Below the pieces are notes generated by a model. It was given only the letters and a program-made list of their open reading frames with translations. It was not told the DNA's origin and did no database searches. From a virus, in the IMG/VR virus record IMGVR_UViG_3300046525_000127, positions 1-51,471 of that record: a stretch of 51,471 nucleotides of DNA. The stretch is one strand, 5' to 3'. Positions 1,178 through 28,927 of the stretch are shown in pieces. The translations under genes and the position numbers were made by a program. Each line of letters starts with the position of its first letter. Position 1 is the first letter of the stretch.

Positions 1178-1261
1178 TTACTTAACTGTTTCAGTCAAAA
1201 AATAGACAGCACCACAAAAGCTTGAAGTGCTTAATAAAATTGTTACTTCGGTCATATTCAT
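1178..1261 (-). CDS. Possible 27-residue peptide coupled to the primase gene
   Basis: A short frame starting MNMTEVTILLSTSSFCG whose ATG overlaps the stop codon of the primase-helicase gene (ATGA). It ends 14 bases before the start of the excisionase-like gene, so it fills the gap exactly. The middle is hydrophobic (CGAVYFL). Nothing is known about it; translational coupling is the only support and it could be chance. Confidence 0.3.
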   Translation of the reverse strand: MNMTEVTILLSTSSFCGAVYFLTETVK

Positions 1262-3999
1262 TTTTTTCCACCTGCTGTCTTTGCTTGATAAGGATTGGAG
1301 AAAATCCAGCATTTGACGATACGGTCTTCTTTAATACTTGGTTGATTGCCATAGCCTTGAATAGCTTTACTTTCATCTGCAGGTTGGTGTGATGAACGAA
1401 CTGTTTTGTTTGCCTCAATGAATTTGTAGCGCTTACTTGTTTTTAATAAATTCCGCATTTCATTGATCTCAGGTAGTGCCTGATAATTACGTGCAGCAAC
1501 TTTGTAGACCTCATTCAGATTGATGGCGATCTGCGAATCTGTAGTTGCGTAATGGTTCAATTGGAAGCTGGTACCACGAATACTATTGAGATATTCAAAG
1601 GCATCCCAAAACTGTTGAACAAATGGATGATCTGCTGCAATTTCTTCAATACGTCGCATGGCCATACCCTCTAAATATCTTTTGGCATCACAGATGTCAG
1701 ATAAATCGATTGCATCTTTAAAGACGTGCTCCGCAATGGCATCAATCATGGCTGACACTTGGGCATGACAGAGGGCGATACGGGTATTGGTAATGCCTTT
1801 TTGATGTAGCTCAATTTCAATTTCTTTATGTTTTTCGGTATAAGTTTTGAGGATGCTTTCCTCATTCTTTAAGCAAAAGGTCATGTATTTACATGCATCT
1901 TCCAAACTCATCTGTGTCAGTCGAGTGGCAACGTGCTTTTTCTCTAAGCTGTGATTTTTAGTGTCTACAGAAATATGCAATGTACGAGATAACACTGCTT
2001 CAGATGCTTGAATCGGGGTGTTTTGGCTAATCATCACCGCAGCACGGAAAGGAGGCTCATAGGTTTCGTTGCCTGCGGTTTTTAAGCCTTTAGAGCGAAT
2101 TGCTCGACCGTTATAAGCATCTTTTAATTCGTCCCAACTGAACTTTGCTTTTTGAGATCCAGCCTGGTCGTTACGGTCACCTTCAATCAGGACAATAGGC
2201 ATGTTGGAGGTTTGGGCAAAGTTACGGTAAATCGCCACGTTAGTGGATTTATTCGGATCGAAACCTTCATAGGCTTCACGGCCACTCAACTTCCACAAAA
2301 ATTCAATGATGGTGGATTTACCTGAGCCTGCTTGTCCAACGAACTCAAAGAAGGGATAAGAGGAATTGATAGCGCGGATCTGCTCGGCAAAATATGTACC
2401 TGTCCACCAAGCCAAAAGGATTAATCCTTTCTCACCTTGAAGCGCATAAAAGTCTTTCCACCATGTCGGAGAAAACTCTTGTTTTGCATTTAAATGAATA
2501 ACAGGAGATGCAGCTAAGGTTTTGATTTCCTTATTACCAGTTTTAAAAAAGTCATGCTGATTTTTGTGGATAACTTGACCTTTATGCACAGCAAACTTAT
2601 CAAAAATATAGGCTTCATATTCTTTAGAATAGCCAATAAAGTCGATGGTTTTTACTTCACGTAGACGCTCTGTTTTACGCTTGATGAATGTTTCTAGCTG
2701 ATGGTCGTTACCTGACCAAATGGTTCCCGATAATACGGCTAATACACGTGGTTTAAACTTGCTTCGAGAGGACATTTGCTCGGCGGTAAATGTCGTTTTA
2801 ACTTCACCCCACGGTGACTGAATATGAAAGTAGTACCAGGATTCATCGGTAATTTCATTTCGTTGGAAATAAAGTGGCTCAAGCTGAGCATTGCAAATCT
2901 CTTTTGCTGAAGAGCAGGTCTTTAATGCTTGAATCCGTATTTCTTCTTCAGTCAGAACCGTGCTTTGAGATTCTTCTACATACTGAACAGCCTTGTTATA
3001 TTTTTCATAATCAAGCTCCCACCAGTAGGTACGGAAACGGTGATTAAAAAAGAACTGGCTTAAACTGCTACCGTAAAAGTTGTAGATCAATAGGCCTGTT
3101 TCTTCAGGTGTTTCTGAAATCTGTAACTTTCCGAAGTGCAGATATTTATCCTGATCCTTTTCGGTGAGTTGGCCTCTTTGGTACAAGTCATTCCAGTCGA
3201 CCGATTTACCATTCATTGGCGCAGGCGGTAGGGCAGCAGTAGAAATCCAACCCTCATCCGTTGCACGTTTATGGTGTTTCGCTAGATATTTTTTCCCTGC
3301 AGGATCATTGTCTAAAGCCCAAACTAAACGCGGTCTGCTTTTATTAAGTTCATGGCAGCGGTTCTTAATTTGCTCCAAGAGAACAGCAGGGTAATTCCCA
3401 CTGTTCATATTACTCATACTGATTAATTCGGATTGACTAAGCGCGATCGAATTAAAAATACCTTCAGTAATCCAAATACTGCCTGCATTACACAGCATAT
3501 CTAAATCATGCACTGTCCAAGCAAGGCCAGACCACTTTCCAATGAAGTTAGCCTTCATGCGTTCGAACCGTTCAGGGCGATCGATCAGACGTTCCCAATA
3601 AATGCCTTCAGCCAATTTAAAGCGAACGGTCGCTGTAACGAGATTTCGGTTTTTAGGTGAACGATACAGCTCTTGGGTATACAGTCCCTTGAGCTTTGAG
3701 ATATCAAAACCACGGCCTTCTTTGAGGTAAGCATCTGCTGCTGCATGTGGGTTTGCTGTTGTTTGTGGATGATATTCAGACCAGTCTTTAAAAAGCTCTT
3801 CACAGATCTCTTTGACATGTTCTTCATAACCACATTTATTGATTCGTCCACACTTCACCATGCGTGGGGTGATGGCATGTGTGTAGAGTTCTTTTTCTTT
3901 ACATTTCGGACAGATTCCTTCTCGATACCATTCACCTTTTTTCTTGAAATGGAATAACTGGTTGAGTCGGTCATCTATCCGTTGCTGTAGGTGATACAT
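1258..3999 (-). CDS. Phage primase-helicase (zinc finger, TOPRIM, P-loop ATPase)
   Basis: 913-residue replication protein, probably priming and unwinding the phage origin. A zinc-finger-like segment near residues 30-57 has CPKC followed by CGRINKCGY. A TOPRIM-like domain lies near residues 170-260 (ITEGIFNSIALSQSE, then WALDNDPAGKKYLAKHH). A P-loop ATPase begins near residue 525 (FVGQAGSGKST), with LIEGDRND as a likely Walker B. The layout is like P4 alpha-type primase-helicases rather than the P2 gpA nickase. It is the main gene of the leftward early operon. Its extreme C-terminus (KCWIFSNP) resembles the C-terminus of the Rha protein at 26195-27013 (KCWIFKNP). Confidence 0.85.
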   Translation of the reverse strand: MYHLQQRIDDRLNQLFHFKKKGEWYREGICPKCKEKELYTHAITPRMVKCGRINKCGYEEHVKEICEELFKDWSEYHPQTTANPHAAADAYLKEGRGFDISKLKGLYTQELYRSPKNRNLVTATVRFKLAEGIYWERLIDRPERFERMKANFIGKWSGLAWTVHDLDMLCNAGSIWITEGIFNSIALSQSELISMSNMNSGNYPAVLLEQIKNRCHELNKSRPRLVWALDNDPAGKKYLAKHHKRATDEGWISTAALPPAPMNGKSVDWNDLYQRGQLTEKDQDKYLHFGKLQISETPEETGLLIYNFYGSSLSQFFFNHRFRTYWWELDYEKYNKAVQYVEESQSTVLTEEEIRIQALKTCSSAKEICNAQLEPLYFQRNEITDESWYYFHIQSPWGEVKTTFTAEQMSSRSKFKPRVLAVLSGTIWSGNDHQLETFIKRKTERLREVKTIDFIGYSKEYEAYIFDKFAVHKGQVIHKNQHDFFKTGNKEIKTLAASPVIHLNAKQEFSPTWWKDFYALQGEKGLILLAWWTGTYFAEQIRAINSSYPFFEFVGQAGSGKSTIIEFLWKLSGREAYEGFDPNKSTNVAIYRNFAQTSNMPIVLIEGDRNDQAGSQKAKFSWDELKDAYNGRAIRSKGLKTAGNETYEPPFRAAVMISQNTPIQASEAVLSRTLHISVDTKNHSLEKKHVATRLTQMSLEDACKYMTFCLKNEESILKTYTEKHKEIEIELHQKGITNTRIALCHAQVSAMIDAIAEHVFKDAIDLSDICDAKRYLEGMAMRRIEEIAADHPFVQQFWDAFEYLNSIRGTSFQLNHYATTDSQIAINLNEVYKVAARNYQALPEINEMRNLLKTSKRYKFIEANKTVRSSHQPADESKAIQGYGNQPSIKEDRIVKCWIFSNPYQAKTAGGKK

Positions 4000-4815: not shown

Positions 4816-5172
4816 ATGGATTTATCCCAAATGGTAAATGAGAATAACGATCAAAGAGGCGAACGCCTTCGTCAGGAACGATCACGCTTAGATCTGTCAC
4901 AAAAAGATTTCGCTGCGTTATTTGGTAAGAAAAACATGGCTGTAATGCGCTACGAGAAGGGTGAGCGCGTTATGGGGCAGGAAGACTTAGAAGCACTGCA
5001 TAAAGCGGGTGTGGACGTTTGGTATTTGATTACTGGTGAACGGACTCAGCCTGATTTGCTTTCTGATGAAGCCAAAGAGTTACTGAAATATTGGGATCAG
5101 GTCGATCCTGAACAGCGCCAAACTTTAATGACTTTGGTACGGAATTTTGCGGAGAGTTTCGGGAAAAAATAA
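4816..5172 (+). CDS. CI-like prophage repressor (XRE helix-turn-helix)
   Basis: 118 residues with an XRE-family helix-turn-helix at about residues 15-70 (RLRQERSRLDLSQKDFAALFG, key recognition around KKNMAVMRYEKGER), a short linker and an acidic tail. It lacks the LexA/CI self-cleavage domain, so induction probably does not depend on RecA cleavage and may instead need the antirepressors encoded elsewhere in the prophage. The start has no clear ribosome site and overlaps operator sequence; ATG 4831 is an alternative. Confidence 0.8.
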   Translation: MDLSQMVNENNDQRGERLRQERSRLDLSQKDFAALFGKKNMAVMRYEKGERVMGQEDLEALHKAGVDVWYLITGERTQPDLLSDEAKELLKYWDQVDPEQRQTLMTLVRNFAESFGKK

Positions 5173-5314: not shown

Positions 5315-6262
5315 TTGAAGATTAATTATTACTGTCATTTTATTGAACATAGTGATACTCAAGAGCAATATTTATTTGATATCAAGCCTTTCTTAAAGGC
5401 TTTTACAAATTGGGAAACAAGTATTGAAATCGCTAAGCGATTAACTAGAGATGGGGAACATTTGTATTTATTGCCAGTAGAGGGTAAGAAGAACTATTAT
5501 TTATTTGTTGAAACAAAAGAAAATGATGCTATTCAAAAAATCAAAACATCAGTTGCTTCAATAGATTCTTCACAGATTATTGATGAACTACAAAAAGAAG
5601 ATTCTACGATTGGCTTTGCTTCTTATATTTTCTTTGATGAAAAGAGAAATTTATTTTCTTTCACAAGCCGTCAAAACTCACCTAGAGCAGAAGCTTTTCG
5701 TAACTTTATGAATGATTTATTTGGAAAGTTGGGTTTGGGGCGTTTAGATTTTAAGATTTTCCAATTGAAAGATAATATTCCAAAGACAAGCGTTGCCAAC
5801 TTCCCATTTATTGGTAAGACATCAATCACTGTTAATAAAGATAGTGAACTTTTTGAATATTTAGCAGAGTATTTGATATCAAATTCAGCAGATAGAAATG
5901 CTATTGAAACACTAGAAGTCACAATCAAGCCAGCTTCAAGACAAAATATAAATGACTCTGTTACGCGTGCGATTAACAAGGTTAAGCAACAAGGCTTAGA
6001 AGGTATTCGTTTAAAAGCAAAACGTACTATTGATAATAAAGAACCTTTAAAAGAATATTTTATTAATGAATCTGGAGCAATTTTTGACGAAATTGATTCT
6101 TTAGATACTCATATCATTTATGAATATATGTCTGGGTTCTTAAAAACGAATACTATATTAGAAACTAAGATACAAGAACATGAAGGAAAATATGAATTTT
6201 CTTCGGAAACATTGACTCAGCTTACTGAGTACAACAAACCTGAAAAGTGGAAAGATCGCTAA
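5315..6262 (+). CDS. RexA-like superinfection-exclusion protein
   Basis: 315 residues. By memory comparison it aligns along most of its length with lambda RexA: MKINYYCHF at the start against MKNGFYATY, then IGFASYIFFDE against LGFPSFLFVEG, PFIGKTSITV against HFIGRTTVKV, LEVTIKPASRQNI against LDIVIKPKFKRDI, and GIRLKAKRTID with YFINESGAI against ISLRAKDEAGD with HYLSEKGHL. In lambda, RexA senses foreign phage replication and triggers the RexB channel. The gene follows the repressor as in lambda. The start is TTG 5315 with a good GAGGG site eight bases upstream. No RexB-like membrane protein follows. Similarity was judged by eye, not by search. Confidence 0.7.
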   Translation: MKINYYCHFIEHSDTQEQYLFDIKPFLKAFTNWETSIEIAKRLTRDGEHLYLLPVEGKKNYYLFVETKENDAIQKIKTSVASIDSSQIIDELQKEDSTIGFASYIFFDEKRNLFSFTSRQNSPRAEAFRNFMNDLFGKLGLGRLDFKIFQLKDNIPKTSVANFPFIGKTSITVNKDSELFEYLAEYLISNSADRNAIETLEVTIKPASRQNINDSVTRAINKVKQQGLEGIRLKAKRTIDNKEPLKEYFINESGAIFDEIDSLDTHIIYEYMSGFLKTNTILETKIQEHEGKYEFSSETLTQLTEYNKPEKWKDR

Positions 6263-6469: not shown

Positions 6470-6775
6470 CTAACGGTTAAAACCGTTGTTTATCAGGTCG
6501 GACAGTTCATTGAAGAATCGCCAGCTTTTTTCTGTATTTTCTAATATCAAAATGGCCTGCACAGCACAGATAGAAAGGTTGTAGGTGTCATGCTGCTCAT
6601 TGAAATGGTAGTCGATATTTTCACGCAAGCGAGACCAGATAATGTTGGTTTCAACAAATGTTTTGTATGACACGTCCGTGTCGAGTAAGCGGTACAAATG
6701 CTTTGAACTGATGAAGAACTTACGCTTCTTCGTACTTGGCTCTTGTAGGCGCATAACGTGCTTTTCAATACCCAT
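6470..6775 (-). CDS. AntA/AntB-like antirepressor domain protein
   Basis: 101 residues resembling the N-terminal domain of AntA/AntB phage antirepressors: SSKHLYRLLDTDVSYKTFVE, then IIWSRLRENIDYHF, then the helix SICAVQAILILENTEKSWRFF, comparable to the Ant pattern of a tethered W, a Y-x-F segment and the ENNEKGRxxRRYF-like helix. Antirepressors bind and inactivate phage repressors. It lacks a second domain. It overlaps the preceding gene by 11 bases and belongs to the operon headed by a C4 RNA, the classical arrangement for ant genes. Confidence 0.6.
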   Translation of the reverse strand: MGIEKHVMRLQEPSTKKRKFFISSKHLYRLLDTDVSYKTFVETNIIWSRLRENIDYHFNEQHDTYNLSICAVQAILILENTEKSWRFFNELSDLINNGFNR

Positions 6776-7454
6776 GATCAGTCCCTCGTAAAAATTCGGT
6801 TGGTAGTATTTGTTCAGGCGTATGCCATTGCCATCTGTTGATGTTTAGTCGTGTTGGTGCCGAAGCTGCGTAGGTTATTATTTTTCGGGCGATGTTAAGC
6901 CACTGGTGCAGTCGTGGATCGTCATGGGCAATGTCCAGTTTGTACTGGCGAAGCTGTAAATACAGTGAACGATAGTCGCTGTGAAAGACTAATAAATCCT
7001 CCTTTGTTGCAACTGGATGAATAGGCGCGTCGTTGCCTTTAATTGGCTCAGCAGGAGGCGGAGTACTAGCTTTTTTAGCTGGCTGTGATGTGCCAATGCC
7101 AAAGAGTTGCTTTAGTTTTTTATAGTTGATGGTGTAGTAATTCACCCGCATAGACTTAATTTTTGAGAGCTTATTAATCTCAATTAAACCGAGTTCCTTG
7201 AGTTTGGCCACAGCTCTTTTGATGGTCGAAACACTGAACAAACCCAGTGTCGATTGCCATTCTTCAAAGGTGTGAAACCACCATTTACGGTTTAAGTGAA
7301 CAGTGAGGTTTTTCTTTTGTTTGTACTTCCGATTTTCACTAATGAGGAAGTGCAATTTCTGCAAGAACGTGGCTGCTGCAGTCCCCAGCTCTTTAGCGAG
7401 TTGAGGTGATGCAATGAGTGGATATTCTTGGTTTTGAAGGAGGATATTTTTCAT
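6765..7454 (-). CDS. Winged-helix protein of the antirepressor operon
   Basis: 229 residues from ATG 7454, which has GGGGAG seven bases upstream and couples to the preceding stop as TAATG; a longer frame reaches 7487 but is less likely. Residues about 60-115 form a winged-helix pattern (FEEWQSTLGLFSVSTIKRAV, then KLKELGLIEI) seen in phage replication/DnaD-like helix-turn-helix proteins. A proline-rich linker (STPPPAEP) leads to a helical C-terminal part. Probably DNA-binding; replication initiation accessory or regulator. Confidence 0.65.
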   Translation of the reverse strand: MKNILLQNQEYPLIASPQLAKELGTAAATFLQKLHFLISENRKYKQKKNLTVHLNRKWWFHTFEEWQSTLGLFSVSTIKRAVAKLKELGLIEINKLSKIKSMRVNYYTINYKKLKQLFGIGTSQPAKKASTPPPAEPIKGNDAPIHPVATKEDLLVFHSDYRSLYLQLRQYKLDIAHDDPRLHQWLNIARKIITYAASAPTRLNINRWQWHTPEQILPTEFLRGTDHGY

Positions 7455-7630
7455 TATTTTTCTCCCCGATAGGTTTCTGTGAAACAAGCTTTACAATGTG
7501 ATCTCCATTGTGTTTTGCCACGCCAAATACCATTCTTATAGAAGAAGTCTGTGTCGAGAGGGTAGTAGTCGCCACATAAGGTGCAGCGTTTTTCTGTACC
7601 GAGTTCAGTGTTGATATAAATTTTAGGCAT
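7454..7630 (-). CDS. Small four-cysteine zinc-finger protein
   Basis: 58 residues starting MPKIYINTELGTEKR. Two CxxC knuckles (CTLCGDYYP and HCKACF) about 30 residues apart suggest one zinc site of the HNH-associated or treble-clef kind without catalytic residues. Ribosome site GGGGA in front; its stop overlaps the next start (TAATG). Second gene of the operon. A frame at 7393-7575 is a shadow of this one. Confidence 0.7.
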   Translation of the reverse strand: MPKIYINTELGTEKRCTLCGDYYPLDTDFFYKNGIWRGKTQWRSHCKACFTETYRGEK

Positions 7631-7640
7631 ACGATTCCCC

Positions 7641-7784
7641 TTAACGTGTGAAACGTAGGCGAATAAAACTTAAAATTTGTTTATGAATTGGGGGGTGAGC
7701 AAAGTTAGATGCTTGTAAGCGTTGTAGACAGAGGGTGTCGAGGCGTGCAGGTGCTGAATGCACACTTTTATTGTTAGTGTTCAT
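7641..7784 (-). CDS. Short C4-controlled leader protein (47 aa), icd-like position
   Basis: Starts MNTNNKSVHSAPARLDTLC. It is the first frame behind the C4 antisense RNA, and its ribosome site lies in the sequence complementary to the C4 loop, exactly the place of the icd/orfx gene before ant in phages P1 and P7. It is related to the 44-residue protein at 27010-27144 (ARLDTLCLQRLQASNFAHPP against NRLDKICYQRIQSAHFASPS). The downstream zinc-finger gene begins ten bases after its stop. Confidence 0.7.
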   Translation of the reverse strand: MNTNNKSVHSAPARLDTLCLQRLQASNFAHPPIHKQILSFIRLRFTR

Positions 7785-7841
7785 AGTCGTTTCCTTAGTG
7801 ATAAGTTTTAACGCCTACCAACATCCTTTCCACGGAATGGT

Positions 7842-7914
7842 GGCAGACTACACAGGGGTGGAAATACCGCTCACTAAGTTACGGCCAGCGCAAAGCTGCC
7901 CTGCATAGCCTGCC
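7842..7914 (-). ncRNA. C4-type antisense RNA, module 1
   Basis: 73-nt RNA closed by a 16-bp stem (7914-7899 with 7857-7842, a few G-U pairs). Inside are the small hairpin CAGC-TTTGC-GCTG and a second hairpin whose loop exposes CTTAGTGA (plus 7871-7878), followed by single-stranded TTTCCAC. These two elements are complementary to TCACTAAG and GTGGAAA just before the 47-aa start codon (7793-7800 and 7827-7833), and to the same pair upstream (7972-7979 and 7991-7998). This is the P1/P7 C4 architecture: the RNA blocks translation of the leader frame and so of the antirepressor operon. Confidence 0.85.
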
Positions 7915-7935
7915 ATAACGACTGCTAAACAGTAG

Positions 7936-7962
7936 ACAAAAAAAAATGCCGCATTAGCGACT
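7936..7962 (-). terminator. Terminator/attenuator between the upstream targets and C4 RNA 1
   Basis: On the minus strand GTCGC-TAAT-GCGGC is followed by a run of T. It sits between the first target copy and the C4 RNA. The other C4 module has the same hairpin-plus-T element in the same place. Confidence 0.6.
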
Positions 7963-8029
7963 TTGTTTTTCGCTTAGTGATGATAAACAGGTTTCCACGC
8001 CTGATCACAGATTTTGCTGTGATATGGAC

Positions 8030-8057
8030 AATATAATTTAAATATTTTTTTAGTCAA
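8030..8057 (-). promoter_or_regulatory. Promoter of C4 module 1
   Basis: Minus-strand -35 TTGACT (8057-8052) and -10 TATATT (8035-8030) with a 16-bp spacer. A perfect inverted repeat ATCACAG-N6-CTGTGAT follows at about 8004-8023 and would be a hairpin at the 5' end of the transcript or an operator. Confidence 0.65.
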
Positions 8058-11751: not shown

Positions 11752-13119
11752 TTAAAGTTGATATTCTTTTTGTTCAGGGAACAATAATTCTAAATGTTTT
11801 GGATTAATCTTAAATAATGGTCCTTTTTCTGTAGCATTGCTGACACCATTTTTACGCTTAATCAAATGATCCATCGTGATCACACCATCCTTTAAAAGAG
11901 GCATGAATTGACCCACAAGTGGGTTCTTAGTGTGTATAACAGACTTCAACACAAAATGCTCAACACCATTAATGTCAATCGGTTCAGCTTTAATCCAGAA
12001 TGTCTCTTTATGTTTTTCAATTAAGCGCTGACGTAGGGTAGAACCTTGCCATACTGCTACCTCACCGTCTGTAATATGCTTTTCTACAAGAAGGTCTTTG
12101 TCTTCTAAATACTCAAAAAATAAACCTTGAGAATTTGCTGTTTTGGTACTGATCGAACAATAAAGCTTTAAGTCTGTATCTCGCATATAGCCAAATTTAT
12201 CTACAATTGCACCACTACTTTTTAAAGGGCTTAAATCCCAATTTGCCACTTGCGCAAAAATAGTTGAACGTGTCTTTTGAGCCTTATCCTTTTCTCGAGC
12301 AGATTTAAGCTCGATACCTTTGTAATCAGGATGCTTTGACGAATTTGCCGAAATGCCGAGTGCATGTTCAATGGTCATGCCAATGCCAGTATCGCCTGAC
12401 TTGATCGATTTTAAAGGACCGAGTTTTGCTATTGTTCTTAGCTTATCTAATAACTCAATGGCGATAGCATCTGACTGAGCAGAAAACTTTTGCAGTAATG
12501 CAAGTTGTTGGTTTAGATCGACTTTAGAGATATTGAAAACGTAAAGTAAGCCATCCACTAAAATCAGAGCAAGTGTGTCATTTGGCTGTACATGTGGCTT
12601 AAGTTTATAAACCCAAATACGTGGATCACCTTGTTTCGTTTTAGGTCTGTATAAACTAACTTGCGTATCAATGACTTCGTTCGCTGTGACTAATTTAGCT
12701 GCTTTCTTTTCAATTTGACCTTGAGTTTGCACAGCGTAATCATGATATCCATTGAAATTGAAAAAATCGCGCAGTGGTGCAACTGCATCCATAATTGATT
12801 TATCAATGCCCGTAGCAGTAATGATTAATTCGCTGTGATCTAGTCCTAGTTTTGCTAAAAGCTCACGGTTATGACGAATTAGGTCTTCGTTGATAACTGG
12901 ATAAGAGAGAGTAGGCTGAGATAGGACAATGGGTTGGTCGTCTGAAGCTTCTTCTGCTTTAGATGCATTATCCAGAGCTTGCCAGTTTTTATAACCATGA
13001 TCTTGCGCGATTTTATTTAAAGCCGCTGTATGAGAAATTTTTAACTTATTTTTAAGATCTTTGGCGTCATCTTTTAACCGCGCAATTGAACGGGTCGGGA
13101 ATAATGGTTGTTGCTTCAT
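11752..13119 (-). CDS. Type II restriction endonuclease, MvaI/BcnI-like, with N-terminal extra domain
   Basis: 455 residues. The C-terminal half carries the MvaI/BcnI pattern: GDTGIGMTIEHALGI, then HPDYKGIELKSAR, whose D-x(n)-E-x-K residues are the expected PD-(D/E)XK metal site. MvaI and BcnI cut CC(A/T)GG and CC(C/G)GG. Residues 1-50 (SIARLKDDAKDLKNKLKISH, LNKIAQDHGYKNWQAL) are a small helical module also found in other mobile-element proteins, here fused to the nuclease. Divergent from the methyltransferase. Target not determinable here. Confidence 0.8.
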   Translation of the reverse strand: MKQQPLFPTRSIARLKDDAKDLKNKLKISHTAALNKIAQDHGYKNWQALDNASKAEEASDDQPIVLSQPTLSYPVINEDLIRHNRELLAKLGLDHSELIITATGIDKSIMDAVAPLRDFFNFNGYHDYAVQTQGQIEKKAAKLVTANEVIDTQVSLYRPKTKQGDPRIWVYKLKPHVQPNDTLALILVDGLLYVFNISKVDLNQQLALLQKFSAQSDAIAIELLDKLRTIAKLGPLKSIKSGDTGIGMTIEHALGISANSSKHPDYKGIELKSAREKDKAQKTRSTIFAQVANWDLSPLKSSGAIVDKFGYMRDTDLKLYCSISTKTANSQGLFFEYLEDKDLLVEKHITDGEVAVWQGSTLRQRLIEKHKETFWIKAEPIDINGVEHFVLKSVIHTKNPLVGQFMPLLKDGVITMDHLIKRKNGVSNATEKGPLFKINPKHLELLFPEQKEYQL

Positions 13120-13156
13120 TGAAATTACCTTTTAGTTCATGTTCGGAAATGCTCGA

Positions 13157-13316
13157 CCCGCAACAAAGCTTTCCTGCACAAACAAAAAGTCAGAAATATT
13201 TCAACGAGATAACCAAAAGGGGTTTTTACAGTTGCGGGCTGTAGGCTTACTCAAGAAGCCATTGGCTTATATTTCCACAACTTAACAGAAATATCAACTT
13301 AACAAAGTTTGTTAAG
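13157..13316. promoter_or_regulatory. Control region between restriction and methyltransferase genes
   Basis: The 288-base gap holds two structures. CCCGCAAC (13157-13164) and GTTGCGGG (13231-13238) form an 8-bp stem closing an 82-nt segment in the leader of the restriction gene. CTTAACAAAGTTTGTTAAG (13298-13316) is a perfect palindrome around a central G, placed like an operator between the divergent genes. GGCTT-N7-AAGCC (13248-13264) is a further small hairpin. No separate controller (C) protein gene is present, so control probably acts through these sites or through the methyltransferase. Confidence 0.55.
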
Positions 13317-13407
13317 CGACATTTGATGTCATTCTACGCCTGGTTTTTTTTTTGATTTGTTATTAAAATGCAGAGGCTGTTTTTATCTAAATTTAGGAAA
13401 TACTAAT

Positions 13408-14976
13408 TTGAACCACATTGAGTTATTTGCAGGCTGTGGCGGTTTGTCACTTGGACTAGAGTCTGTTGGATTTAAATTAGTTATGGCAAATGAGCTTTCG
13501 CCAATGGCGGCAGAGACATTTGCCTATAATTTCTTTCATCAAAATTTAGAAGAAACAACACCAGAAGATAAGGTCTTATGGCTCAGTAGTAAGTTCGATA
13601 AAAACAGTATGAAAGCCAGATTAAGAGAGGATCCAAGAGCTTTTCCTGAGTTAAACGAAGGTCATTCAGATTTATCTGAAGAGACAGAGCTTCAAGGCAA
13701 ATTAGTTGTTGGTAATATTATTCAGTTGAATCAGTGGTTAGAAAAACATCCTATACAGGCTAATCAACTTAAAAATGCCTATGGCGAAGAAGGTGGATTA
13801 GATCTGGTATCAGGTGGTCCACCATGTCAGAGCTTCAGTATGGCTGGCTTAAGACAGTTTGATAATAAACGAAATGTTTTACCGTGGGAGTTTGCTAAAT
13901 TTGTGCAAACTACTCAGCCCAAAATAGCACTACTGGAAAACGTTACGGGCATCCTAAGAGCTTTTGATGTTGAAGGTAAGAAATTTTATGCATGGTTTGA
14001 AGTAGCTAAGGCATTCGCACAAATTAATTACATTCCTTTGTGTTTACACATCAATGCAAAATATGCAGGTGTTGCTCAAAACCGCCCGCGCTTTATTTTC
14101 ATTGGGATACGAAAAGACGTTTTTAATAATATTTATCCAAAACTAAGTGCAGATGAACAAGAATTATTCCGACAATCAATTCAGATGACAAAGGATTTGA
14201 GTGAGGAAAAGGAAGTTGAATATAGCGCTCTGCCATATTTTGATGTGTCTTATCCAGAACATAAAGATGCTTTTGAGAAAACATTCTTGAACCCACTCAT
14301 TAAATATAAAAATAATGAATTTTCTGTTAAAGATGCGATAGATGATTTACGCAAGGAAGGTACGGAGAAATCTAAATATATCGAGTTGATCAATAGTACA
14401 TTGATGCCAAATCTAACGTTAAATGGGAAAATGAGAAATCATGACTTAAGAAATAATGGCATCCATGTTCAGCGACGCTTTAGGATTTATCAAATACTTC
14501 AATTATTGGATAGTTCAGTAAAAAAAGAGGCTTTAGATTTACTGAAAGGAAAGATTCCTTCCGTTTCCGATAACACCGCTAAGATACTTTTAAGTTATGA
14601 CTATTTAATTGATTTGAATCAATATGCGAGGTTTTCAAATATTGCGGAACTTATTCAGTATTTTAATGAGCACCAAACAAAGAAACAGACCCAAAAAGCT
14701 TTAATAGCATCTCAGCCTGCACCAGCTGCGCTGTCTATTCCAGATGATGCCTGCCATTACCATCATGATGAATTGAGAACGTTAACGGTGCGTGAAATGG
14801 CTCGTATACAGTCATTTCCAGATCAGTTTGTATTTAGATCAAAGGTTACAACTGGTGGGCAAATGCGTCAGTTTGAAGTTCCTCAGTACACTCAGGTAGG
14901 AAATGCTGTCCCACCATTACTGGGTCAGGCTTTAGGTAATGTTATTAAATCTTTGTTAGATAAATATAAATTATAA
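13408..14976 (+). CDS. DNA (cytosine-5-)-methyltransferase of the restriction-modification system
   Basis: 522 residues from TTG 13408, which has GGAAA in front and puts motif I at the usual distance from the N-terminus; the frame is open to 13357. Motifs in order: I FAGCGGLSLGLE, IV GGPPCQSFS with the catalytic Cys, VI ENV, VIII QNRPRFIFIG, X GNAVPP. Motif IX-like RELTVREMARIQ appears as LRTLTVREMARIQSFP. The long region between motifs VIII and IX is the target recognition domain. It protects DNA from the adjacent nuclease. A 12-codon frame (13368-13406) ends just before the TTG. Confidence 0.92.
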   Translation: MNHIELFAGCGGLSLGLESVGFKLVMANELSPMAAETFAYNFFHQNLEETTPEDKVLWLSSKFDKNSMKARLREDPRAFPELNEGHSDLSEETELQGKLVVGNIIQLNQWLEKHPIQANQLKNAYGEEGGLDLVSGGPPCQSFSMAGLRQFDNKRNVLPWEFAKFVQTTQPKIALLENVTGILRAFDVEGKKFYAWFEVAKAFAQINYIPLCLHINAKYAGVAQNRPRFIFIGIRKDVFNNIYPKLSADEQELFRQSIQMTKDLSEEKEVEYSALPYFDVSYPEHKDAFEKTFLNPLIKYKNNEFSVKDAIDDLRKEGTEKSKYIELINSTLMPNLTLNGKMRNHDLRNNGIHVQRRFRIYQILQLLDSSVKKEALDLLKGKIPSVSDNTAKILLSYDYLIDLNQYARFSNIAELIQYFNEHQTKKQTQKALIASQPAPAALSIPDDACHYHHDELRTLTVREMARIQSFPDQFVFRSKVTTGGQMRQFEVPQYTQVGNAVPPLLGQALGNVIKSLLDKYKL

Positions 14977-20830: not shown

Positions 20831-21439
20831 TTATGCCGCGTTATTGATGAGTTGATCAAAGTTGACCAAATAACGGTCGGTAATGCGTTGATTGAGACCT
20901 AAGTTTTCAAGTGTTGGCACTGGAGTGAAGTCGTAGTCAATCCACATCTCACCTTGAGATAAGCCTTCAATGGTGTTTTGAGCAGGGTCATACCAAACCG
21001 AGGCTCCAATCAGGCGCTTGGCTGTGACATGCTCGGTCAATTTGGCATTGATCGAATCAATAATGTCTTTGGCCAAGAAGGGCGTAAGGGGTTGGTCGAC
21101 AAATGGAAAACAGCCATTGATGATGGTGTCTAACAAGAACTGTGCAGTTCGGGTTGCAACTTCAAAAGCAAAGCGTGGATCGTCAGAACAATTGCGGTTA
21201 CCCCAAAAACGAGCACCATCATGCAAAATCATAGTGGTGATATCTTTGCTGTTGAGATAACCTGCATCGGTATCAGGATCTTCAAGATCCCATGTAATCG
21301 GCTGACTAATGCCAGTCGGACCGACGACTGGAATATTTGAAAGCGATTTATGCCAACCGACTTTTTTGTCAGTTTCAGCACGTAGCGCTGCAGCAACAAC
21401 GGCAGCGGTGAGAATGCCTGGTCCGTATTTAAGAGCCAT
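20831..21439 (-). CDS. FI: Tail sheath, C-terminal part (second frame of a split FI gene)
   Basis: 202 residues. Matches the C-terminal half of P2 FI: KKVGWHKSLSNIPVVGPTGIS, FWGNRNCSDDPRFAFE, YDFTPVPTLENLGLNQRITD. It begins in the same reading frame as the N-terminal part, two codons behind its single TAA. ATG 21439 has GGGG nine bases upstream, so translation could restart here. Residues about 6-25 (GPGILTAAVVAAALRAETD) correspond to the P2 segment just before the GWHKTLSN motif. Confidence 0.85.
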   Translation of the reverse strand: MALKYGPGILTAAVVAAALRAETDKKVGWHKSLSNIPVVGPTGISQPITWDLEDPDTDAGYLNSKDITTMILHDGARFWGNRNCSDDPRFAFEVATRTAQFLLDTIINGCFPFVDQPLTPFLAKDIIDSINAKLTEHVTAKRLIGASVWYDPAQNTIEGLSQGEMWIDYDFTPVPTLENLGLNQRITDRYLVNFDQLINNAA

Positions 21440-21442
21440 AAT

Positions 21443-22474
21443 TTAAAACCCCATAAAATTAGTTTCGCCAAGTGAAACAAGCTCGGCAGGGCTGGCGAGT
21501 GGGTCACCATTTTCATTGCTTAATAAATGGAAGATGTCGCGCTCTTCTTGATTGTTTTGCTTCAAGACAATCCGAACAGGGGCTGAAAAGCTTTTGCCAT
21601 CCCCACCCGCAACATAATTGGAATTGATTTGGAAATGGCCGAGACCACCGCCACTACCTACAACAGTGATTGCTGGCCAACGGTCTGCTAGGATTTTTCG
21701 GATTAAATCCCCAAAAACAGCACGTGCATCGGGTTGTTCAACCGTTCCAATCACAATATTGCTTTCGATCTTATTGCCTAAGAAATACAGGTCATAGGTC
21801 AAAGTACCGTCATTGATGATGACTAATTGATCGACAAAGATTTTGGTCGGGACTAAAGCCGTATCAACAACTTCACCCAACAACACATTGCCACTCGTCC
21901 ATTCAGGCCAGATCAATTCAATTTCTCGAAATGCCAACATGTTTCGGAAATTCACCACCTCTTCAGGATCTTCAAAGACAAAACCATCAGCATCACGCGG
22001 GGTAATGTAAGAGTAGGCACGTAACTTTTTACAGATTGCACCTAAGGCGTTTGCAACATCGATGGTTTCAGTATCAGGCACACAAATAATCTTAGGGGTA
22101 ATGCCTAATTGTGATTTAACGGTGAGTAAGGCTTGTAAGCCAGTACGTTGGCCATTGGGTTTGGTCGTGCCAATCACAAGTGATTGTTCAAATTCACCAT
22201 CTCCATATGGGTCAGCAATACGAATCACGACTAAGGTTGGAGAGGTTATTGCGCTAATGATTTCTAGGTTTTTACGTAAATTTCCCATTGCACCGGCTTT
22301 GGGTAAAACACGATTGACCGAGGTAACCAGTACAGGGGTATTCAGCGGAAATGCGTCTTGATCTGCATCATCAGCATAGGCAACCATCGCCATAATATTG
22401 GTATCAGAATTGCGAATTGGAATTTTTCCAGCAGCGGATTCTCGCGCTGTAATACCGTGGTGAAACTCTGTCAT
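21443..22474 (-). CDS. FI: Tail sheath, N-terminal part with an inserted domain
   Basis: 343 residues. The first 195 or so match the N-terminal half of P2 FI (MTEFHHGITARES, PLNTPVLVTSVNRVL, LRAYSYIT, REIELIWPEW). After WPEWTSGN comes about 150 residues absent from P2 FI (for example KIFVDQLVIINDGTLTYDLY and GLGHFQINSNYVAGGDGK), ending GETNFMGF and TAA. The rest of the sheath follows in frame at 21439. Either a nonsense mutation, stop read-through, or a two-chain sheath. Confidence 0.85.
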   Translation of the reverse strand: MTEFHHGITARESAAGKIPIRNSDTNIMAMVAYADDADQDAFPLNTPVLVTSVNRVLPKAGAMGNLRKNLEIISAITSPTLVVIRIADPYGDGEFEQSLVIGTTKPNGQRTGLQALLTVKSQLGITPKIICVPDTETIDVANALGAICKKLRAYSYITPRDADGFVFEDPEEVVNFRNMLAFREIELIWPEWTSGNVLLGEVVDTALVPTKIFVDQLVIINDGTLTYDLYFLGNKIESNIVIGTVEQPDARAVFGDLIRKILADRWPAITVVGSGGGLGHFQINSNYVAGGDGKSFSAPVRIVLKQNNQEERDIFHLLSNENGDPLASPAELVSLGETNFMGF

Positions 22475-25994: not shown

Positions 25995-26198
25995 TTATTT
26001 GTACGCTGTATTTTGTAGGACTTGTTTGAGTCTACATTCAGCCTGTGAGAGCACGCAGATTAAATCTTCTTTTGATAGGTCATTACAATTGTCGTTTGAA
26101 TCTGATAATCCCATACTTGCCATCATGTTTAATGTGGCTCGAACTTCATTAATCACCTGATAGTTTTCTTCGGAAAGCTGATAAATGATATTTCTCAT
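25995..26198 (-). CDS. Small hypothetical protein behind Rha (67 aa)
   Basis: Starts MRNIIYQLSEENYQVINEVR; two predicted helices with LSQAECRLKQVLQN at the end. Its ATG overlaps the Rha stop (ATGA), so it is translated with Rha. No known motif. Confidence 0.6.
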   Translation of the reverse strand: MRNIIYQLSEENYQVINEVRATLNMMASMGLSDSNDNCNDLSKEDLICVLSQAECRLKQVLQNTAYK

Positions 26199-27013
26199 AA
26201 TTCAGCCTCCACATCTGTATTTGTTACAGCCGTTTTCGGATTTTTAAAAATCCAGCATTTATACACTTGGTGATCTATAGCACTTCGATAAGGCAAATTT
26301 CGATTTAGATATTGAGGAAATGGGGCATTGCTACTGGCTAAATCAGTCAGCATGTTTTGTCGTAATGGTAAGTTTGGGATGGTGTTGTAAATTTGAGTCA
26401 GATTCAGTGCCAAAATATTGGACTGGCTTGAATGATTAAACTTTTGAATATCTGTTTCAAATAAGGCATTCCAAAATTCATTTAAGCGCTGTTGAGCTTG
26501 TTCTATTTGAGGTAAGGCACGGTCTAGGACAAGACAATGAACAGAGAATGAATGTTCGTAAAGTTTGCCATTTTTAAACCAATGGACTTGAGCGATGTCG
26601 TTTTCTATTTGGCTGACAGTTAGTTGCTGACTGCCTGATTTGAGTTGTACCAGTGAACCCGCTGTCAGTTGTGGGATTTGTAATAACTGGTTTTGCAGTA
26701 ATTCAGACATTTGATTAAAAGCAAAAATGTAAGCTTCTTTGATTCGAGCTGCTTTTGTGCCAGTAAAACCCATAACTAAAAACATCCAACCATCTTTCGT
26801 CATTTCATACATTGGTAATGTTCGGCCAGTGGCGTCTTGATATTCACTCAGCTCAAAATTGAGCTGAGTGAATTCGGAGGAACAGTCTAAATATTCAATG
26901 GCACGTAAAATATTGGTATGTCTTTTATCAAAAAACTCAGCAACTTTTAAGCTATTGGTTTTGATTTGCTGATCTTGAATAAATACTGCGGTATTGAGGT
27001 CAAAAGAATTCAT
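26195..27013 (-). CDS. Rha-family phage regulatory protein (antirepressor-type)
   Basis: 272 residues. The N-terminal Rha domain is clear (VFIQDQQIKTNSLKVAEFFD, KRHTNILRAIEYLD, YEMTKDGWMFLVMGFTG, KEAYIFAFNQM). Rha and KilA-N/Ant domains are exchangeable modules of phage antirepressors. The C-terminal half is unrecognised except for KCWIFKNP, shared with the end of the primase. It is coupled by ATGA to the 44-residue leader frame and stands under control of a C4 RNA, which supports an antirepressor role. Confidence 0.82.
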   Translation of the reverse strand: MNSFDLNTAVFIQDQQIKTNSLKVAEFFDKRHTNILRAIEYLDCSSEFTQLNFELSEYQDATGRTLPMYEMTKDGWMFLVMGFTGTKAARIKEAYIFAFNQMSELLQNQLLQIPQLTAGSLVQLKSGSQQLTVSQIENDIAQVHWFKNGKLYEHSFSVHCLVLDRALPQIEQAQQRLNEFWNALFETDIQKFNHSSQSNILALNLTQIYNTIPNLPLRQNMLTDLASSNAPFPQYLNRNLPYRSAIDHQVYKCWIFKNPKTAVTNTDVEAEL

Positions 27014-27144
27014 TTTGCACCTCCAACATTTTTAAGAAGGGTGATGAGTTTTATTTTTAGAGAAGGGGAAGCAAAGTGTGCTGACTGGATGCGTTGATAG
27101 CAGATTTTATCGAGACGGTTTTGTGCCGTTAAATTTTTATTCAT
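27010..27144 (-). CDS. Short C4-controlled leader protein (44 aa), icd-like
   Basis: Starts MNKNLTAQNRLDKIC. Its ribosome site (AGGTG) lies in the sequence complementary to the C4 loop, and its end contains the GGAGGTG site of the Rha gene and overlaps its ATG. So blocking this frame also blocks Rha, as icd does for ant in P1. Related to the 47-residue protein at 7641-7784. Confidence 0.72.
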   Translation of the reverse strand: MNKNLTAQNRLDKICYQRIQSAHFASPSLKIKLITLLKNVGGAK

Positions 27145-27198
27145 GTTGATTCACCTGTGTATTTGGTTTTTCTGCCCTCCTAGCGACCAAACTAGGGT

Positions 27199-27273
27199 GG
27201 CAGATCGAACGGGGTTGGTCGACCGTAAAACACAGGCAAAACGGCAGGCTTACGCCTCCCCATCCGATCTACC
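27199..27273 (-). ncRNA. C4-type antisense RNA, module 2
   Basis: 75 nt. GGTAGATCG (27273-27265) pairs with CGATCTGCC (27207-27199). Inside are a GGGG/CCCC stem, the hairpin AGGC-GTAA-GCCT, and a hairpin CCGT...ACGG whose loop exposes CCTGTGT, followed by unpaired CGACCAA. These match ACACAGG at the ribosome site of the 44-aa frame (plus 27154-27160) and TTGGTCG at 27184-27190. TTGGTCG also recurs upstream (27348-27354). The fold plan equals module 1 but the pairing sequences are entirely different. Confidence 0.85.
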
Positions 27274-27300
27274 AAAACGCGGGTACACCGAATTATAGAC

Positions 27301-27322
27301 AAAAAAAATCCGCAAGTAGCGG
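27301..27322 (-). terminator. Terminator/attenuator upstream of C4 RNA 2
   Basis: Minus strand CCGC-TACTT-GCGG followed by AT8. It lies between the first target copy and the C4 RNA, as in module 1. Confidence 0.65.
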
Positions 27323-27382
27323 TTGTCTACCATGTATTTTCAACGAGCGACCAAACTCGACCACCAGATGGATGGTCTCATC

Positions 27383-27434
27383 AAGTTAACTTTGTTGAGT
27401 TGGGTTGTCAAGTATGTAGTTAATTTGATATAAA
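27383..27434. promoter_or_regulatory. Overlapping divergent promoters of C4 module 2 and the nuclease gene
   Basis: Minus strand: -35 TTGACA (27411-27406), 17-bp spacer, -10 TAACTT (27388-27383), driving the C4-rha transcript. Plus strand: -35 TTGTCA (27405-27410), 18-bp spacer, -10 TATAAA (27429-27434), driving 27473. The two -35 elements occupy the same bases, so the polymerases exclude each other. Confidence 0.65.
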
Positions 27435-27472: not shown

Positions 27473-28927
27473 ATGAGGGTTTCAGAAATATTTAATTTGG
27501 GATTAACTCAAGCTTATTTAGATTTTGTTGATATTGATTTAGATACAGATATAGAGGTTTTTGTTGATCCAACAGCCCTGAGAAGTTTAGAGTCGCCATG
27601 GGGGCACGTTTGTGCAAGCCTAGTACAACAGTATTTTGAGACGGTATTGGAATATATCGGCAATAATCAGCATTCTCAGGCTAAAGAGTTACTTAGTAAT
27701 TTAAAAGAGAGAAATGAATTTCATATTGGATATTCTTCAGGTCCTTCAAGAGGATCGGCTTTCGGAAACATTTCTGCTGATTTAGTTTGGAATGCTCTAT
27801 GTAATAGCAGAGCAGCTCAAACAGGTCTTTTACAAGATATTGAGGATACATGTCTATTAATTGATGGTATTGGTAAAGATATGATATCCGATGCTGTTTG
27901 CAATATTATTAGAGAGCCATTAATAGAGTATACTATTGATATGTGTAACTATTATAATATCCCTCTAACACATAATGTTGACTCAGGACCAATTTGGAAT
28001 CAACAAACAAAAAATTGGGAAAATAGATTTGTTTCACTGCCGATGGTTAATGGACGAATTTTTTTATTAATTCCAAGAAGTATTGTAAGACGTAAAATTA
28101 CATATGATTTTAGCGATTATTATCGTAATTATATCTTGGAAGAAATACGTGCAGAACACATTAGAAATCGATCTTCCCTTGTTTATTATCTTAAGAAAAA
28201 TGGTGCCCCAAGAGTAGATATTAAAGATTTACGTGAAATATATGGTAATACTAAACAATCGGGAATAGATCAAACAATCGGACGTGAACATGTTTGGAGT
28301 AAATATAAGAGTGAAAAAGAGGCTCTTCCTAAATATCCACTTTCTCATGAGGAAATATTGGAAATTCAGAATTTACCGGCAATTGATTGGGATCAACTAA
28401 TTCAAGAGTTAGATAGTATACCTAAAGGTACTGATCATGCTACAACATATGAAAAGCATATAGAAAAGATATTAACTGCATTATTTTATCCGAATTTGAA
28501 CTATCCTAAAAAGCAAGCAGAAATTCATAATCGAAGAAAGCGTATTGATATTCAATATATTAATGAAGCTAAAAATGGATTTTTTAAATGGCTAAGTTTG
28601 CATTATCCTTCAGCATATATCTTCATTGAATGTAAAAACTATACTAATGAAATTAGAAATCCTGAAGTTGACCAATTATCTGGAAGATTTTCACCAGGTA
28701 GGGGGCAAGTAGGCCTTTTAGTCTTTAGAGAGTCAGATAATCAGGATTTACTTGATCAGAGATGCATAGATACAGCAAGAGATAATCGGGGTTACATTAT
28801 CTCTTTATCTGATGAGGATATTAAAAGAATGATTACGGATTTTAAGAATTCATCTCCATATAATCATGGAATAGAAAGAAATAATTATCCGTTGTTGAGG
28901 CAGAAATTTAGCAATTTAGTTAATTGA
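27473..28927 (+). CDS. Probable PD-(D/E)XK nuclease, single-gene cargo (484 aa)
   Basis: N-terminal two thirds unrecognised (starts MRVSEIFNLGLTQAYLDFVD). The C-terminal part has a restriction-endonuclease-like core: an acidic residue in TTYEKHIEKILTALF, RRKRIDIQYIN with the metal-binding Asp, then YIFIECKNYT with the E-x-K pair, then VDQLSGRF. It is transcribed against the late genes from its own promoter, is AT-rich, and sits where P2-like phages carry accessory genes. A lysogen-expressed defence nuclease is the most likely role; the trigger and target are unknown. Confidence 0.72.
   Translation: MRVSEIFNLGLTQAYLDFVDIDLDTDIEVFVDPTALRSLESPWGHVCASLVQQYFETVLEYIGNNQHSQAKELLSNLKERNEFHIGYSSGPSRGSAFGNISADLVWNALCNSRAAQTGLLQDIEDTCLLIDGIGKDMISDAVCNIIREPLIEYTIDMCNYYNIPLTHNVDSGPIWNQQTKNWENRFVSLPMVNGRIFLLIPRSIVRRKITYDFSDYYRNYILEEIRAEHIRNRSSLVYYLKKNGAPRVDIKDLREIYGNTKQSGIDQTIGREHVWSKYKSEKEALPKYPLSHEEILEIQNLPAIDWDQLIQELDSIPKGTDHATTYEKHIEKILTALFYPNLNYPKKQAEIHNRRKRIDIQYINEAKNGFFKWLSLHYPSAYIFIECKNYTNEIRNPEVDQLSGRFSPGRGQVGLLVFRESDNQDLLDQRCIDTARDNRGYIISLSDEDIKRMITDFKNSSPYNHGIERNNYPLLRQKFSNLVN

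Follow-up and report, generated by a model that had tools for sequence, protein, structure and literature searches.

The window analysed here, a viral record 51,471 bases in length, holds an Acinetobacter P2-like prophage and, beyond it, a second integrase and host genes. The prophage has an integrase gene at 57–947. A primase gene lies at 1258–3999, and the tail, baseplate, capsid, terminase and portal genes extend to about 37 kb. A RexA family protein (5315–6262, plus strand; Pfam 225 bits) is encoded directly downstream of a CI-like repressor (4816–5172), which is the arrangement of lambda rexAB. Genes resembling a type II restriction enzyme and a cytosine methyltransferase are found within the prophage at 11752–14976. 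The tail sheath gene (20831–22474, minus strand) consists of two adjacent ORFs of 343 and 202 residues. The split recurs in the related prophages G041 and G086, with an extra ORF between the halves in G041; in G035 the tail sheath is one gene of 391 residues.

The whole record was scanned with the Rfam model of the C4 antisense RNA (RF01695; cut-off 45 bits). Two matches were obtained, both above the cut-off, and a third C4 was absent. Module 1 lies at 7836–7920 (minus strand, 61.9 bits) and module 2 at 27193–27279 (minus strand, 63.3 bits, full length). The preliminary description had proposed two C4 modules with different codes in one prophage, and both turned out to be genuine. Module 2 occupies an accessory position between the tail genes S and V, together with a divergent defence candidate. 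The latter is an ORF of 484 residues (27473–28927, plus strand) which matches the phage defence candidate PDC-M36A (2.5e-48).

In the direction of transcription (minus strand throughout), module 2 contains TTGACA, a palindrome, a1, b1, a hairpin followed by T8, C4, a2, b2, a leader, Rha and a 67-residue protein. The candidate −35 element (27406–27411) is the exact consensus hexamer and is located 57 nt before a1, as compared with 60 nt in P1 c4. The −10 element is weak, and for this reason the consensus promoter scan made no call. The operator-like palindrome AACAAAGTTAACTT (27383–27396) occurs once in the window without mismatch, and it is common to module 2 of G001/G041 and to G019_x. Near the CI-like gene, neither a repeat of the palindrome nor a matching set of sites was found, so that regulation of module 2 by this repressor gained no support. 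The a1 site TTGGTCG (27348–27354), the complement of a', forms the loop of a CGAG...CTCG hairpin (27344–27359), and the wider a1 region pairs with a' at −13.5 kcal/mol. The b1 site (GAAAATACATGG, 27330–27341) pairs with b' imperfectly but strongly. GAAAATACATGGTAGAC and b' form a 14-bp duplex that includes wobble pairs and a single bulged base (−13.1 kcal/mol), an energy close to that of b2. The earlier reading of a1 as intact and b1 as degenerate thus holds fully for a1, and for b1 only with respect to the exact 7-mer. Similar imperfect b1 sites were found in A. qingfengensis and in an A. baumannii C4, which argues for a shared form rather than one-off decay. The terminator-like hairpin with its T8 tract (27301–27323, from folding) separates b1 from C4, and it may serve in both modules as an attenuator that sets the C4 level.

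The 87-nt C4 of module 2 adopts the C4 structure when folded by itself (−41.6 kcal/mol, z = −5.6), and none of 200 shuffled sequences folded as well. By analogy with P1, the mature RNA is predicted to span about 27273–27196 (78 nt). A GG dinucleotide is present at the expected RNase P cleavage site (27273–27272; predicted release of about 77 nt). The small C4 RNA described earlier therefore stands, with its length revised from 75 nt. In the P3 loop, b' (GCCTGTGTTTT, 27227–27237) contains CCTGTGT; a' is CGACCAA (27215–27221). The a2 target TTGGTCG (27184–27190) lies just 3' of C4, and the b2 target ACACAGG (27154–27160) covers the ribosome site of the leader, 9 nt before its ATG. Both complementary pairs reported previously were thereby recovered, including the placement of ACACAGG. 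The b'–b2 duplex has 11 bp and −14.6 kcal/mol. The leader ORF (27010–27144) encodes 44 residues and holds the position of P1 icd. It is overlapped by 4 nt (ATGA) by the Rha gene (26195–27013, 272 residues), which has a 4-nt overlap with the last gene of the unit, the 67-residue protein (25995–26198). These ATGA overlaps suggest translational coupling of the three frames. The 67-residue gene is kept in G038, G039, G041 and G086.

As proposed before, module 2 heads a Rha gene in a layout resembling P1 immI. The protein matches Pfam Phage_pRha (PF09669) with 102.9 bits (cut-off 29.9) and the PHROG Rha/anti-repressor families, and it is these family names that make it a putative antirepressor. Homology with P1 Ant was ruled out at the level of BLASTP, which gave no detectable similarity to Ant1 (best E 0.18). 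The C-terminal domain of Rha (26195–26540) is homologous to the C-terminal domain of the prophage's primase (1258–1700, minus strand); hhalign gave a probability of 98.7%, and BLASTP an E value of 6e-4 for the pair. Since Rha shares this domain with the primase of its own prophage, action on replication is also possible, a hint that the protein may touch the replication machinery or its DNA site.

Module 1 (minus strand) follows the same plan with another code, b' ACTTAGTGA and a' TTTCCAC, which has exact copies at all four sites. A promoter candidate, TTGACT-16-TATATT (8030–8057), agrees with 10 of the 12 consensus positions. It is followed by a1 GTGGAAA (7992–7998), b1 (TCACTAAG, 7973–7980), a terminator-like hairpin with T9 (7938–7961), C4, a2 GTGGAAA (7827–7833) and b2 (TCACTAAG, 7794–7801) at the ribosome site of the leader. 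The operon comprises this 47-residue leader (7641–7784), a 58-residue protein and a DnaD/O-like replication initiator (6765–7487), which matches phrog_6493 (7.1e-18) and related families. The module 1 leader resembles that of module 2 (BLASTP E 3e-9 for the pair), so that the paralogy of the two modules extends from the RNA to the leader. The preliminary description had taken the two C4s to imply two independently held antirepressors. This fails in the window, where module 1 heads a replication operon and only module 2 has an antirepressor-family gene.

For module 2, shuffled b' sequences paired as well with b2 in 12 of 5000 cases and with b1 in 10 of 5000. The pairing of a' alone was not significant, 579 of 5000 shuffles being as good. 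A stronger test than shuffling came from a comparison of 46 distinct C4/target sets, among which there are 38 b' loop sequences; loops and targets co-vary across these sets. Cognate complements of at least 7 nt were present for b'–b2 in 37, for b'–b1 in 40, for a'–a2 in all 46 and for a'–a1 in 45 sets. Among swapped, non-cognate pairs, the frequency was 2–9%.

On the strength of the C4 structure, the complementarity, the co-variation, the gene order and the recurrence described below, we propose with a probability of roughly 0.8 that the prophage holds two separate P1-type C4 switches, each silencing its own operon. A promoter in each module would transcribe the leader region with a1 and b1, and then C4, which would be excised to give a free RNA about 78 nt long. 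This RNA would engage two targets: its a' would bind a2, and its b' would bind b2, at which the ribosome site of the short leader ORF lies. Leader translation would then stop, and the downstream genes would be silenced through lost translational coupling and probably also through Rho-dependent termination, both as in P1. Module 2 would thus silence leader, Rha and the 67-residue protein, an accessory regulatory unit between S and V in which Rha may act as an antirepressor, and module 1 would silence the replication-initiator operon. Given their different codes, the two RNAs are expected to be confined in cells to their own operons, and the two functions could be held and released independently.

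A T-tract hairpin between b1 and C4 was found in 38 of 39 C4 loci and in phage P1. This could mean that the modules are mainly transcription attenuators, with C4 targeting the leader upstream of it, and so setting its own level, no less than the gene downstream. The retention of 8–11 exact matches in b1 where b2 is lost points in the same direction. Pairing at b2 is weak (−2.7 to −4.9 kcal/mol) in six of nine relatives' module 2-labelled C4s and in G035_1, which seems to be the prophage of record G008 within the genome of its host. These relatives retain a2, a1 and b1 pairing. Blocking of the ribosome site is consequently not universal; in the weak-b2 relatives a2/b1 pairing alone may suffice, or those switches may have changed. 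Nevertheless, we regard attenuation as the main function as unlikely, given that a ribosome-site b2 is kept in 37 of the 46 sets and that the annotation of the P1 record assigns repression to a2 and b2.

Multiple C4s recur in related phages. Among the viral records with a close Rha relative, seven of nine carry two C4s, and the remaining two records are short (29 and 16 kb). Two C4s were also found in the Acinetobacter prophages G034, G035, G036, G037 and G041, and three C4s per prophage in A. populi (G038) and A. qingfengensis (G039); all of these prophages have P2-like portal, terminase, capsid and tail genes. These counts are not all independent, because some viral records are prophages from the genome loci (e.g. 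G001 and G041). In G034–G039 and G041, a full-length Rha gene of its own lies behind every C4 except that of module 1 in G041, and the Rha copies inside one prophage share 43–53% identity. The notion of independently held antirepressors therefore fits these relatives, in which the two or three C4s have a Rha gene apiece.

G041 has the layout of the window, with a C4-leader between S and V and a second C4 at the replication operon, and so does G086 over the portion retrieved. G086 keeps the C4 and the leader and lacks Rha, and the 67-residue gene comes directly after the leader; Rha need not be the purpose of the switch. The lack of Rha from the G086 slot could also indicate that only module 1 is a working immunity RNA and that module 2 is a recently acquired cassette or a decaying relic with little role. 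Its place beside a divergent defence candidate in the accessory S/V slot and the disappearance of b2 pairing in some relatives would suit such a history. This explanation seems quite improbable, however, as all four module 2 sites pair in the window, the leader, Rha and 67-residue frames are intact with their ATGA overlaps, and three prophages whose codes differ all keep the C4-leader in this slot.

In the window, the cognate b'–b2 duplexes reach −14.6 (module 2) and −10.9 kcal/mol (module 1), as compared with −4.8 and −5.1 kcal/mol for the crossed ones. For a'–a2, the cognate values are −9.9 and −9.1 kcal/mol and the crossed values −3.8 and −3.9 kcal/mol. From these energies the two codes are predicted not to cross-react. 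In 12 prophages that carry two or three C4s, cognate pairs have a mean combined duplex energy of −21.9 kcal/mol and co-resident non-cognate pairs one of −9.1 kcal/mol; for 25 of the 26 C4s, the cognate target is preferred by a margin above 3 kcal/mol. In type-matched controls, cross-pairing within a prophage (−8.9) showed no extra avoidance relative to that between prophages (−9.2). Selection against cross-talk is thus not supported, and the orthogonality follows from two diverged C4 types. Cross-talk in cells that joins the two C4s into one shared repression circuit is very improbable: all C4s share one scaffold and some crossed a'–a2 pairings are strong in relatives (G005, −9.7; G034, −10.1), but the crossed halves are weak in the window (−4.8/−3.8 and −5.1/−3.9), and four changed bases are reported to suffice to stop the cross-action of P1 and P7 (Citron and Schuster 1990, as cited in PMC5320573).

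C4 type and Rha lineage are discordant among the relatives; the tree needs four changes, at least three of which are forced by well-supported branches. The portal-adjacent Rha proteins of A. populi and A. qingfengensis are sisters, and their C4s differ in both type and code. Judging from these sequences, C4-leader cassettes appear to have been exchanged between Rha lineages, with the A. populi/A. qingfengensis pair as the clearest case. The C4 of G004, initially labelled module 2, is of type A by its code, yet it heads a Rha. The promoters of type B modules are overlapped by a near-palindrome, AGTA(T/A)CTAAG(C/T)TACT, carried by G002, G005, G006, G009, G036, G037 and the A. baumannii C4. The palindrome of module 2 differs from it, so the modules may answer to different repressors. 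A third C4 type, with a' often TCTGTCAAC or TCTGCTAAC, occurs in pairs in the Acinetobacter elements G053, G119, G120, G136, G048 and G135. Its members head unrelated short ORFs, and integrases lie between some pairs.

Most Acinetobacter species genomes (101 of 119) contain C4, with a maximum of 26 per genome, as against 6 of 184 other genomes from the same class, which were counted with stricter filters. Four of 13 named phages have a C4, one apiece, and none was found in the distant primase-bearing P2-like phages Dobby, Smp131, phi3 and ESSI2. A C4 in an Acinetobacter prophage is therefore expected, and the presence of several with separate targets is the notable part. In 39 Acinetobacter genomes with two to six C4s, several pairs lie 13–37 kb apart. 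That nearby C4s always belong to one prophage was ruled out: among seven spaced pairs examined, only G086 is of the P2-like type, and at least three others have integrases between the C4s.

Some C4s stand alone. In A. baumannii NZ_CP077849, which has 19 C4s (four clustered at 907459–908042), one at 601488–601574 shares 89% identity with module 2, and its code is almost that of module 2. It heads an ORF of 69 residues, and no match to a gene of the window phage was found within 20 kb. Its predicted pairing with the Rha leader of the window (−16.2 and −9.9 kcal/mol) is as strong as that of the phage's own C4.

The prophages with two or three C4s suggest that phages accumulate independent RNA locks for different genes, one scaffold being reused two or three times per prophage with private codes for different operons. 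A broader picture, which we offer tentatively and consider somewhat doubtful as a whole, is that Acinetobacter P2-like prophages carry two or three C4 switches in an array, orthogonal to one another, with diversifying codes and exchanged C4-leader cassettes, and that these switches together with trans-silencing chromosomal C4s form an RNA code network of immunity. In such a network, code-matched stand-alone chromosomal C4s could silence the same operons in trans. The unexplained C4-like sRNAs of Acinetobacter would gain a testable role, namely silencing of the Rha or replication operons of code-sharing prophages. If the switches work as predicted, separate lytic functions are kept under separate RNA locks, heteroimmunity could be foreseen from short loop sequences, and the 38 different b' loops would provide a natural set for orthogonal translational control.

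The C4 immunity of P1 and P7 is a single switch on one antirepressor, and heteroimmunity of these phages via C4 is known. A literature search, with most subscription papers and the original P1 work lying outside it, yielded no prophage with several orthogonal C4s, in agreement with the preliminary description as far as multiple switches in one phage are concerned. The abundance of C4s in Acinetobacter is not new. Weiss et al. 2016 (PMC5320573) reports Group 1 C4-like sRNAs of A. baumannii that are numerous per genome, variable in the a' loop, highly expressed and apparently processed. The word prophage has 0 occurrences in that article, and the passages covered here neither pair the C4s with cis targets nor describe a phage with several codes. 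Weinberg et al. 2010 (PMC2864571) lists the c4 and upstream c4-a1b1 motifs in proteobacteria and phages, with no multi-switch prophage in the passages covered.

The Vibrio phages 10N.222.45.E8_PE002 and 10N.286.54.F9_PE001 have a C4 followed immediately by a Rha-like gene, as in module 2, but they carry one C4 each. The closest parallel in layout is P1/P7 immI (c4-icd-ant). It shares with module 2 the a1/b1 sites upstream of C4 and the a2/b2 sites downstream at similar spacing, with a2 just after C4 and b2 at the ribosome site. Also shared are the translated leader, the ATGA overlap of leader and antirepressor (icd/ant1), and the T-tract hairpin before C4. In contrast, P1 immI heads ant, whereas the Rha of the window is not detectably Ant1-like and module 1 heads replication genes. 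P1 has one C4, while the prophage of the window has two with different codes, and it is this combination of several C4s with separate codes and targets in one prophage that stands out here.
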